Source: an uncultured Lachnospiraceae bacterium
GTDB taxonomy: Bacteria; Bacillota; Clostridia; Lachnospirales; Lachnospiraceae
DNA length: 42,138 nucleotides
Assembly (NCBI GenBank): GCA_902793685.1
Contig: CADBEN010000019.1
Coordinates: 1 to 42,138, forward strand
Reading direction: 5' to 3'
In this document: positions 13,001-14,957 of the stretch, piece by piece
Layout: every line of letters starts with the position of its first letter
Numbering within the stretch: position 1 is the first letter of the stretch
Notes under the pieces: model-generated
Databases searched by the model: none
What the model was told of the DNA's origin: nothing
Seen by the model: the letters and a program-made list of their open reading frames with translations, nothing else
Position numbers and translations under genes: made by a program

Positions 13001-13038
13001 TACAGAATCACCTGTTGTGCATCAGGGAGGTGAAATTT

Positions 13039-13797
13039 ATGAAAAAATCAGTGAGACGTCTGGCGTTCGGCGCACTGGCAGCTGCTGCGGCAGTGCAGTT
13101 CGCGGCGTGCCGGAACCGCCCGGAGACGGTCTACGGCCCGCCGGAATATTTCACGAAAACAGACCCTTCGAACAATGTCCCGGAGGATGTCTACGGTCCG
13201 CCGGAGATGTTTGAGACGACTCAGCAGGGTACGGAATATGAACCTTCGGAGAATGTGCCGGAGGCAGTTTACGGCCCGTCGGAAATGTTCGGCATCGACG
13301 AGACACCGGAGGGCGATATCCCGGTGACGGAGTTCGTTCCGGAGGAAAATATCGTGGAGTGCCTTTACGGTCCGCCGGAGATGCTGGAGACGTATCATCC
13401 GGCAACAGAGTTCGTTCCCGAGGAGAATGAGCCGGAGGATGTCTATGGCCCGCCGTCGATGCTCGGAGCCGACGATCCGGAGGAAGGGCCGGAAAACACA
13501 GCTGCGGAAACTACAAAAGAAGGGCCGGAAAACACAGCTGCGGAAACTACAAAAGAAGAGCCGGAAAGCACAGCTGCGGAAACTACAAAAGAAGAGCCGG
13601 AAAGCACAGCTGCGGAAACTACAAAGGAAGAGCCGGAACCGGTAACGCCGGAAACCTGCTATGAACCTTCGAGAAATGAGATGATCGCACTTTACGGTCC
13701 GCCGGAGATGTTCCGGCAGATGGAAACCGCTGTGCCGCAGGCCGACGAGCCCGCGCAGGGGCCGGGTGAAGCTGCGGGAACAGGAGCCCGGAAATGA
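13039..13797 (+). CDS. predicted lipoprotein with six YGPP motifs, candidate radical SAM substrate
   Basis: This 252-residue protein has a basic signal peptide ending QFAAC, with Cys24 as likely lipid-attachment site. The rest is acidic and Pro-rich. Six copies of the pattern [V/L]-Y-G-P-[P/S]-[E/S]-[M/Y]-[F/L] start at residues 31, 51, 77, 109, 135 and 228, mostly preceded by ENVPEA- or EENEPED-like spacers. Between the fifth and sixth lie four 12-residue units (PESTAAETTKEE type). No enzyme domain is visible. The strict conservation of the YGPP octamer in otherwise drifting sequence suggests repeated modification or recognition sites. The stop overlaps the radical SAM gene start (ATGA), which makes the two a coupled pair. 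GGGAGGTGA precedes the ATG. I know no named Firmicute family that fits with certainty. Confidence 0.8.
   Translation: MKKSVRRLAFGALAAAAAVQFAACRNRPETVYGPPEYFTKTDPSNNVPEDVYGPPEMFETTQQGTEYEPSENVPEAVYGPSEMFGIDETPEGDIPVTEFVPEENIVECLYGPPEMLETYHPATEFVPEENEPEDVYGPPSMLGADDPEEGPENTAAETTKEGPENTAAETTKEEPESTAAETTKEEPESTAAETTKEEPEPVTPETCYEPSRNEMIALYGPPEMFRQMETAVPQADEPAQGPGEAAGTGARK
13489..13632 (+). repeat. four copies of a 36-nt in-frame repeat
   Basis: The unit encodes 12 residues of the type EGPENTAAETTK and is repeated four times with small changes inside the YGPP lipoprotein gene. It separates the first five YGPP motifs from the last. Confidence 0.85.
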
Positions 13798-14897
13798 GCG
13801 GTGTTCAGGCAACGCGGGAGATGCTGCTGGACCTGAAGAAAGCGCAGCTGGATCAGCTGGCGGCATACCGGAAACAGAAATTCATCGAGCCGGAGCTCAG
13901 GCACTTGTTTCTGGAGCTGACGCTGCAGTGCAACGCGCGCTGCTTTCACTGCGGGAGCAGCTGTGATCCCGGCGCACCCCAGGGCCTTGCGCCGGAGCAG
14001 TACCTCGCCGTGCTGGAGGATGTGAAAGAGAACTTCGACATCAGCCGCATGATGCTCTGCATTACCGGCGGGGAGCCGCTTCTGTACAAGGATTTCTTTC
14101 CGCTGATGCAGGAAGCGCACCGCATGGGCTTTTCATGGGGCATGACCTCAAATGCCACCTTCATCACCCGCGATGTGGCGCGGAAGCTGAGAGAAGCGGG
14201 GATGGGGACCATCTCCGTCAGCATTGACGGCCTTCCGGAGACCCATGACAGGCTGCGGGGGCTGCCCGGCGGATGGAAGCGGGCGATGCAGGGCATTCAG
14301 AATCTGATCGACGAAGGCGGATTCCGGGCGATCCAGGTCACGACCGTCCTGAATCATCAGAACATGCAGGAGCTGGACCGGCTCTATGAGATATTTGAGA
14401 AAGTGGACCTCGACTCCTGGCGCGTCGTCGGCCTGGAGCCGATCGGCCGCGCGAAGGAACATCCGGATCTCATGCTGACGCCGGAGGATCAGCGGCGGAT
14501 GTTTGACTTCATCCGGGAGAAGCGCGAGGCGGACATCCCGGTGCAGTACGGCTGCAGCCATTTCCTGGGACTGGATTACGAGCGCGAGGTGCGGGACTGG
14601 TACTTTTTCTGCAATGCGGGCGTCTACACCGCCAGCATCATGGCGAACGGGGACATCGGCGCATGTCTCGATATTGAGCGGCGGCCTGAGACTGTTCAGG
14701 GCAGTGTGCTGCAGGAAAAGTTCAGCGATGTGTGGCGGAACCGGTTCGGGCTTTTTCGGAAACCGCTGTCGACGCTTAACAGGACCTGCGCGGAGTGTCC
14801 GGAGGAGAAGTGGTGCGGCGGAGGAGCGGCCCACAGCTGGGACTACGACCGTAACGAGCAGCAGATCTGCTTCAGGAACATCCTGTGGAAGAATTGA
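13794..14897 (+). CDS. radical SAM/SPASM enzyme paired with the YGPP lipoprotein
   Basis: A 367-residue radical SAM protein. Cys46, Cys50 and Cys53 form the CX3CX2C motif for the SAM-binding iron-sulfur cluster (LQCNARCFHC), and GGEP at 92-95 binds the SAM methionine amino group. The C-terminus has SPASM-type cysteines at 254, 273, 291, 332, 335, 341 and 359 (TCAECPEEKWC), enough for auxiliary clusters. SPASM enzymes usually modify peptides or proteins, making thioether, carbon-carbon or related crosslinks. Coupled translation with the YGPP repeat lipoprotein makes that protein the best substrate candidate; this is inference. No protease, exporter or separate small precursor is adjacent. A GC-rich hairpin follows the gene. 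Confidence 0.92.
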   Translation: MSGVQATREMLLDLKKAQLDQLAAYRKQKFIEPELRHLFLELTLQCNARCFHCGSSCDPGAPQGLAPEQYLAVLEDVKENFDISRMMLCITGGEPLLYKDFFPLMQEAHRMGFSWGMTSNATFITRDVARKLREAGMGTISVSIDGLPETHDRLRGLPGGWKRAMQGIQNLIDEGGFRAIQVTTVLNHQNMQELDRLYEIFEKVDLDSWRVVGLEPIGRAKEHPDLMLTPEDQRRMFDFIREKREADIPVQYGCSHFLGLDYEREVRDWYFFCNAGVYTASIMANGDIGACLDIERRPETVQGSVLQEKFSDVWRNRFGLFRKPLSTLNRTCAECPEEKWCGGGAAHSWDYDRNEQQICFRNILWKN

Positions 14898-14920
14898 ACT
14901 GAAACGTTGAAATGATAAGG

Positions 14921-14957
14921 CAGCGGGGCCGGCAAATGCCGGCCCCGCTGCTGCCTT
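14921..14957. terminator. GC-rich hairpin after the radical SAM gene
   Basis: GCAGCGGGGCCGGCA and TGCCGGCCCCGCTGC form a near-perfect long stem over a 2-nt gap. There is no T run on either side, so it may stabilise the 3' end or act as a weak terminator between the convergent genes. Confidence 0.55.

Follow-up and report, generated by a model that had tools for sequence, protein, structure and literature searches.

What does a radical S-adenosylmethionine (SAM) enzyme act on when its gene overlaps that of a lipoprotein that consists mostly of acidic linker and repeats a single octamer six times? The question is raised by a gene pair on contig CADBEN010000019.1 (assembly GCA_902793685.1) of an uncultured Lachnospiraceae bacterium, of which positions 1 to 42,138 (forward strand) make up the window, i.e., the whole stretch of 42,138 nucleotides analyzed here. 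With moderate confidence, our reading is that the enzyme, a radical SAM/SPASM protein resembling spliceases, acts in the cytosol on the YGPP tags of the neighboring lipoprotein, which is exported afterwards. The observations that support this reading are the gene overlap, the co-occurrence of enzyme and tag, the conservation of the motif, and a shared tag and phylogenetic kinship with the PlpX group of spliceases. The tag is very likely the modified site, and the exact chemistry is, by analogy, likely to be a splicease-type excision of tyramine at the tag. The genes and tags concerned are the following:

13039..13797, plus strand: putative substrate lipoprotein of 252 amino acids, with signal peptide, lipobox FAAC, acidic linkers and six YGP[P/S] tags
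13129..13152, plus strand: tag 1, VYGPPEYF, residues 31-38
13189..13212, plus strand: tag 2, VYGPPEMF, residues 51-58
13267..13290, plus strand: tag 3, VYGPSEMF, residues 77-84
13363..13386, plus strand: tag 4, LYGPPEML, residues 109-116
13441..13464, plus strand: tag 5, VYGPPSML, residues 135-142
13690..13713, plus strand: tag 6, LYGPPEMF, residues 218-225
13794..13797, plus strand: ATGA, overlap of the lipoprotein stop and the enzyme start, read from the sequence
13794..14897, plus strand: radical SAM/SPASM enzyme of 367 amino acids, splicease-like, with CxxxCxxC at residues 46-53
14553..14870, plus strand: SPASM region of the enzyme, residues 254-359, with seven invariant cysteines

The lipoprotein gene (13039-13797) and the enzyme gene (13794-14897) share four nucleotides, ATGA, an overlap that suggests translational coupling of the two proteins; the enzyme is present in one copy in its own genome. 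The tags follow the consensus [V/L]YGP[P/S][E/S][M/Y][F/L]. All six YG dipeptides of the lipoprotein are part of a YGP triplet, and these six triplets compare with a maximum of three, reached in four of 20,000 shuffles of the mature sequence. The lipobox reads F-A-A-C, with Cys24 at 13108-13110 and a -3 position slightly off consensus. A first-pass annotation of this DNA had described a lipoprotein with six YGP octamers and a stop codon overlapping the radical SAM start, and both features are confirmed. No Pfam domain was detected in the lipoprotein, and NCBIfam returned three weak matches (best E-value 0.13) with no leader family among them. The linker ahead of tag 6 is extended by four tandem 12-residue units, E[GE]PE[NS]TAAETTK (window 13483-13626).

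The pairing was surveyed across 91 enzyme loci: 11 from a sample of 150 family genomes, and 80 from an alignment search of contigs from one genome per species; a query of genome contigs with the single enzyme gave no confirmed relative, and the alignment query succeeded. These 80 were the best among 573 confirmed relatives, so that the surveyed loci represent the nearest ones. A gene encoding YGP[PAS] lies within approximately 700 nucleotides of the enzyme gene in 83 of the 91 loci, upstream in 81 and only downstream in 2. At least two such genes in a row were counted at 21 loci, of which 20 remain because one open reading frame (ORF) counted at locus L083 is an incidental glycoside-hydrolase-like frame; loci L004 and L051 carry an identical substrate sequence. 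Elsewhere in the same loci, [VLIM]YGP[PAS] was found in 6 of 5,023 other frames (stop-to-stop, at least 60 amino acids, enzyme frames excluded), and four of these six, at L063 and L073, resemble extra members of tandem substrate arrays. The loci without a YGP[PAS] neighbor are eight: L007, L008, L010, L011, L012, L027, L069 and L081. The neighbor at L008 and L010 is instead a zinc-ribbon protein that carries IYGPMP or IYGPKP, the L011 enzyme lacks its CxxxCxxC, and for L007 tagged proteins are encoded elsewhere in the genome.

At the genome level, a motif profile of 21 columns was employed, built from 63 motif contexts (81 were chosen and 18 removed by hand), with matches accepted at E ≤ 0.01. 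In a family sample of 150 genomes (enzyme threshold 1e-60), the enzyme was detected in 11 and the profile in 7, all of them enzyme-positive, with no match in the 139 enzyme-negative genomes. An order sample of 344 genomes (enzyme threshold 1e-50) gave 10 genomes with the enzyme and 5 with the profile, again all enzyme-positive, and no match in 334 enzyme-negative genomes. Since the two samples overlap in genomes and the profile was built partly from positive genomes, the informative part of this result is the zeros in the negatives, together with the matches away from the enzyme. In one genome whose enzyme has no tagged neighbor (G120), a DUF805 protein with three VYGPPEM tags and a zinc-ribbon protein with one tag are encoded elsewhere; another genome (G007) holds an extra one-tag small ORF (47 amino acids from Met) approximately 4.5 kb from the enzyme gene. 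The profile also missed five enzyme-positive genomes of the order sample, all of one genus, though their adjacent lipoproteins are tagged: these loci (L134-L138) carry ACGYGP(P/A), or ACAYGPP at L136, and all but one of them have another tag, VYGPP. Its misses in the family sample were G052 (L006, tagged), G029 and G092 (zinc-ribbon type) and G041 (L011). The first-pass proposal of an enzyme with a multi-site substrate is supported by the pairing at the loci and by profile matches confined to enzyme-bearing genomes in both samples.

Which part of the tag is conserved was read from 117 substrate ORFs. Among their 380 YG dipeptides, taken with positions +2 and +3 unrestricted, Pro occupies +2 in 351 and +3 in 339. 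Of the 343 YGP[PAS] motifs, 315 have V or L immediately ahead of Tyr, whereas past +3 no strong conservation is seen: positions +4 to +6 vary, the most frequent residue at +6 being F (122/343), and positions -2 to -4 are also variable. The conserved core is (V/L)-Y-G-P-P only. The picture of a mostly variable protein with a repeated motif, drawn initially from the window lipoprotein, extends to its homologs, in which the sequence varies and the motif is what stays conserved. Ahead of the tag Tyr, at -11 to -6, the 343 motif contexts also show [FY]DPxxN, a weaker pattern that may have a part in enzyme recognition.

The proteins that carry the tag are diverse. By a rough sequence pattern, 69 of the 117 ORFs are lipoprotein-like, 40 have a signal-like start without a lipobox, and 8 have neither. 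A type I dockerin was identified in an L063 protein (41.6 bits, over the cut-off), with a further match in L055 at 20.7 bits, under the cut-off of 22.9; other domains of tagged proteins are Big_2 (L014) and zinc ribbons (L008, L010 and L124). Judged by eye, the N-termini of the DUF805, zinc-ribbon and small-ORF tagged proteins are unlike those of the lipoproteins, with the tag alone in common. The tag is the sole element common to all scaffolds, and across these substrates no shared leader was found of the kind expected for ribosomally synthesized and post-translationally modified peptides (RiPPs).

The enzyme matches Pfam Radical_SAM (2.4e-22) and SPASM (6.8e-06), and its CxxxCxxC is formed by C46, C50 and C53. 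The seven SPASM-region cysteines (C254, C273, C291, C332, C335, C341 and C359), already counted in the first-pass annotation, are invariant in a 10-sequence alignment, the nine other members of which are 43-63% identical. Its best NCBIfam model is TIGR04133, at 273.5 bits, under the curated cut-off of 425. An AlphaFold model from the ten-sequence alignment (mean predicted local distance difference test score 83, predicted template modeling score 0.85, CxxxCxxC loop below 50) is predicted to have one N-terminal helix ahead of the barrel and no domain resembling a RiPP recognition element (RRE). The closest solved folds are SkfB, anSME and SuiB, i.e., the generic radical SAM/SPASM fold, which does not discriminate the chemistry, and a sequence search of the PDB gave the same picture.

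Kinship was assessed in trees of 24, 37 and 41 rows. The window enzyme is the only YGPP row of the 24-row tree; for the enlarged trees, two Rhizobium rows (long branches) and one of six TIGR04545-like rows were dropped, and for the 41-row tree SCIFF, ACGX and anSME were added and four YGPP rows thinned out. The YGPP enzymes and TIGR04133 form a clade with support of 100/99 (24 rows), 97/98 (37) and 100/99 (41). This clade joins a group of PlpX-like enzymes (TIGR04103, which we take to be the same family as IPR026482), GDL/TIGR03913 enzymes and an Agathobacter relative (L097), with support of 97/94, 99/98 and 95/87.9, respectively. MftC, TIGR04545-like rows (matches under the AhbD cut-off), TIGR04053 and TIGR04347 fall outside the joint clade, as do SCIFF, ACGX and anSME in the 41-row tree; the SPASM families were sampled, not all included. 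As judged from these sequences, the YGPP enzymes are sister to the PlpX group, not nested within it.

Related tags accompany the relatives. Three TIGR04133-type loci, from plasmid records of Parabacteroides, Treponema and Phocaeicola (the last unannotated), encode lipoproteins next to the enzyme with CEYGSP, CYGMP and CEYGTP at or near the lipobox cysteine. The Nif11 precursor found with a Nostoc TIGR04103 enzyme from the same search (853 bits, over the cut-off; 27.7% identity) ends in ALYGLPPELF, GDL-family (TIGR03913) peptides contain RPYGPAM (L099) and QPYGAG (L100, one of three), and the ORF upstream of the Agathobacter-relative enzyme ends in FGPVMYGTGVRM. Near enzymes outside the joint clade, at least one YGxP or YGPP string was present at 7 of 15 loci, in frames of 13 to 139 amino acids.

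The nearest characterized chemistry is tyramine excision by PlpX, and the initial label of a "new modification system" is probably too strong. Excerpts of PMC11002830 place PlpX in IPR026482 and describe the excision of tyramine from Xaa-Tyr-Gly. In those of PMC10533398, PlpXY acts on MYG and LYG with a loss of C8H9NO, the tag PIRPLYGLPI is used, and the leader is not needed. The calculated mass of C8H9NO is 135.068 Da, printed as 135.0757 in a legend of PMC10533398; over six tags the predicted loss would sum to 810.41 Da. By analogy, the window enzyme would cut a piece of each tag Tyr (tyramine) out of the backbone and leave reactive beta-amino acids. Such backbone chemistry at X-Y-G fits the data better than a crosslink because Y, G and Pro are constant and the nearby side chains are not. 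Modification would take place in the cytosol and be followed by export, an order suggested by an enzyme without signal peptide, presumably cytosolic, and by substrates most of which look exported; the ATGA overlap fits it. The tag alone would direct the enzyme, with no leader or RRE, since no RRE gene was found and the model shows just one helix N-terminal to the barrel; one enzyme could therefore serve many scaffolds, some of them encoded away from it.

The function of the product is more speculative. The cell surface would then present six ketoamides, whose most plausible role is to inhibit serine or cysteine proteases while tethered there. This is the best guess because spliceotides are reported protease inhibitors (excerpts of PMC10373908 and PMC11117315), and cellulosomes are known to include protease inhibitors attached via dockerins (excerpts of PMC12484212 and PMC2721979); several sites per spliceotide substrate are possible (excerpts of PMC10373908). 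In its widest form, which we put forward tentatively, the proposal is that a widespread, RRE-less, leader-less splicease branch in Firmicutes and Coriobacteria edits the backbone of ordinary proteins via a portable YGPP tag, in place of making a natural product. Surface lipoproteins, proteins that dock to cellulosomes, membrane DUF805 proteins and zinc-ribbon proteins would each receive between one and seven alpha-keto-beta-amino acids and so become tethered multi-headed protease inhibitors. If true, ketone-bearing beta-amino acids would be a routine tagged modification of surface proteins of gut and rumen bacteria rather than a cyanobacterial rarity, leader-independent enzymes would be at hand for site-specific protein labeling, the orphan TIGR04133/TIGR04134 pairs would be explained, and surface-bound protease inhibitors would be predicted in the gut.

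Several points weigh against splicease-type modification of the tags. The proposed chemistry is a prediction drawn from relatives of the enzyme and from the shared tag. TIGR04103 scores it at 116.9 bits, far under the cut-off of 725, and is outscored by NirJ2 (131.5), AhbD (130.9) and TIGR04053 (121.9); since plain hidden Markov model scores do not favor TIGR04103, the kinship with the splicease group rests on the trees and the shared tag. The approximately unbiased test rejects a placement of the YGPP/TIGR04133 rows with MftC no more than moderately (p 0.0187), with a constraint picked after the first tree. The operon showed no PlpY/RRE partner, and the match of the PqqD model in the genome, at E 0.37, stays under the cut-off; a divergent PlpY elsewhere in the genome is possible. 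The substrate's signal-peptide start is unlike Nif11/NHLP leaders, one of the three L100 peptides has no YG, and no YGxP precursor was found near the PlpX relative at L101. Four loci (L012, L027, L069 and L081) have no YGP[PAS] neighbor, in a search of the locus only. Lastly, because the profile misses true substrates, its zeros in enzyme-negative genomes do not prove absence.

The alternative that survives best keeps the splicease substrate and assigns the ketone another use, namely covalent attachment, or shielding of the surface protein from proteolysis, instead of inhibition. We regard this as quite possible without expecting it: the many acidic, apparently unstructured linkers resemble spacers, and ketoamides have been exploited for covalent labeling (excerpts of PMC10533398), but the reported protease inhibition by spliceotides (PMC10373908; PMC11117315) and the dockerin-linked inhibitors of cellulosomes (PMC12484212), again from excerpts, speak for inhibition.

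Another radical chemistry on the tag Tyr or Gly, such as a decarboxylation-type reaction, Y-G backbone cleavage, desaturation or a novel rearrangement, seems unlikely. It would suit a clade that is distant from PlpX, as the identity of the Nostoc match illustrates, and for which no RRE partner was found, yet the X-Y-G-x-P tag and the joint clade are common to both. MftC, too, speaks for such a chemistry: this enzyme belongs to another of the SPASM groups included in the trees, its target is the Val-Tyr at a C-terminus, and MftA ends in GVY. It resembles the window enzyme as a SPASM enzyme acting on Val-Tyr, but differs in the C-terminal position of its Tyr, its MftB partner and its place outside the joint clade. 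Decarboxylation as carried out by MftC takes place on a Tyr at the C-terminus and so cannot operate on tags that sit inside the protein in several copies.

Crosslinking of side chains at the tag, be it a cyclophane, an ether or the Tyr-Met/Phe link suggested in the first-pass annotation, with -2 Da per octamer, is decidedly improbable. Crosslinking is common among SPASM peptide enzymes, the nearest solved folds include SkfB, anSME and SuiB, and Met, Phe, Leu or Tyr recur at +5/+6 in the window tags. Across the 343 motifs, however, the flanks at +4 to +6 and -2 to -4 vary, and alignment of the octamers across homologs leaves the Met/Phe unconserved, in a core, X-Y-G-(x)-P, like that of splicease substrates. 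The residue before Tyr, mostly V or L, can also be A, M, D, I, T, S or E, and G or C in relatives; because it varies, no partner side chain is constant. The definition of triceptide and cyclophane crosslinkers calls for a constant residue that partners the aromatic side chain, and none was found near Tyr in the 343 motifs, the fixed Pro aside. In the lack of a conserved partner residue, the crosslink was rejected as the principal explanation.

That YGPP is a docking motif only, with the enzyme modifying something else or the lipoprotein anchoring an unmodified partner, is hardly credible: the tag is short, repeated and present on many scaffolds, as binding motifs are, but tagged proteins are confined to enzyme-bearing genomes in both samples, the enzyme has no signal peptide and is presumably cytosolic, in contrast to the tagged proteins, most of which seem to be exported, and relatives act directly on such a tag (excerpts of PMC10533398).

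Set against known systems, the pair is closest to TIGR04133/TIGR04134 of Bacteroidota and Treponema. The enzymes are sisters (35% identity to the Treponema row), and in both cases the adjacent lipoprotein contains YGxP, as X-Y-G-x-P at or near the lipobox in TIGR04133 pairs. The window enzyme nevertheless remains under the TIGR04133 cut-off, the window lipoprotein is not a TIGR04134 member (no match in its own genome at E ≤ 1), it has six tags rather than one, and it has no Pfam domain, unlike the Parabacteroides partner with CarboxypepD_reg. The suspected link to radical SAM/lipoprotein pairs of Bacteroidetes thus holds as kinship, but to a sister group, not as membership. With PlpX/PlpY spliceases (TIGR04103; GDL TIGR03913), the enzyme shares the SPASM radical SAM architecture, the joint clade and an X-Y-G-x-P core, the Nostoc ALYGLPPELF being similar to the window LYGPPEMF; it differs in that its substrate is a surface lipoprotein without Nif11/NHLP leader, and in that no PlpY-like RRE gene was seen in the operon. 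Cellulosomal serpins and Dpi are likewise dockerin-borne inhibitors, as the tagged Ruminococcus-type protein with a dockerin might be, but they are inhibitors of other kinds, and the analogy is one of role only (excerpts of PMC12484212 and PMC2721979).

The proposed chemistry is already known; its leader-less, RRE-less, multi-tag setting on surface lipoproteins, dockerin and zinc-ribbon proteins of Firmicutes and Coriobacteria was not met in the literature among the matches listed. These matches contained nothing on YGPP with radical SAM, TIGR04133 or TIGR04134, most subscription papers being outside the coverage. Scott et al. 2022 (Chem) may already cover part of the system. The excerpts of PMC4573289, PMC10036551, PMC10352776, PMC10885120 and PMC8326336 do not mention a YGPP system.

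The surroundings of the gene pair in the window add two features:

13024..13032, plus strand: Shine-Dalgarno-like AGGGAGGTG of the lipoprotein gene, read from the sequence; the start codon is ATG
14920..14951, plus strand: GC-rich hairpin 3' of the enzyme gene, found in the sequence by eye

The pair seems to form a two-gene operon, since the hairpin and then an opposite-strand M20 peptidase gene come next.

Individual loci show further variation. At L063 and L073, at least six tandem YGPP-tagged secreted genes precede a single enzyme gene, and the scanned L063 protein is the one with the dockerin. Lipoproteins downstream of the enzyme at L086 and L088 have one or two N-terminal tags followed by a region of about 200 amino acids, with no Pfam match for L086. 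In the enzyme homolog at L011:1077-2541 (42-45% identity), CxxxCxxC is lost and the cysteines of the SPASM region are retained; the neighboring ORF ends in PRSGPPEMAG, with Ser in place of the tag Tyr; joint decay of enzyme and substrate is possible. On a Tropicibacter plasmid (L101:2674-5482), the PlpX-relative gene overlaps a trypsin-like peptidase gene. A search of viral contigs gave one locus only, L092:3988-6065, where an enzyme of the clade lies beside a repeated-CxxC protein holding IYGSP and LYGSP; by eye the repeats are zinc ribbons, and Pfam Zn_ribbon_8 matches under its cut-off. The coriobacterial tagged proteins of L030, L035 and L036 start with MKKLTRR[QEG]FTAAG and, because this start resembles a twin-arginine signal, export after cytosolic modification would fit them.

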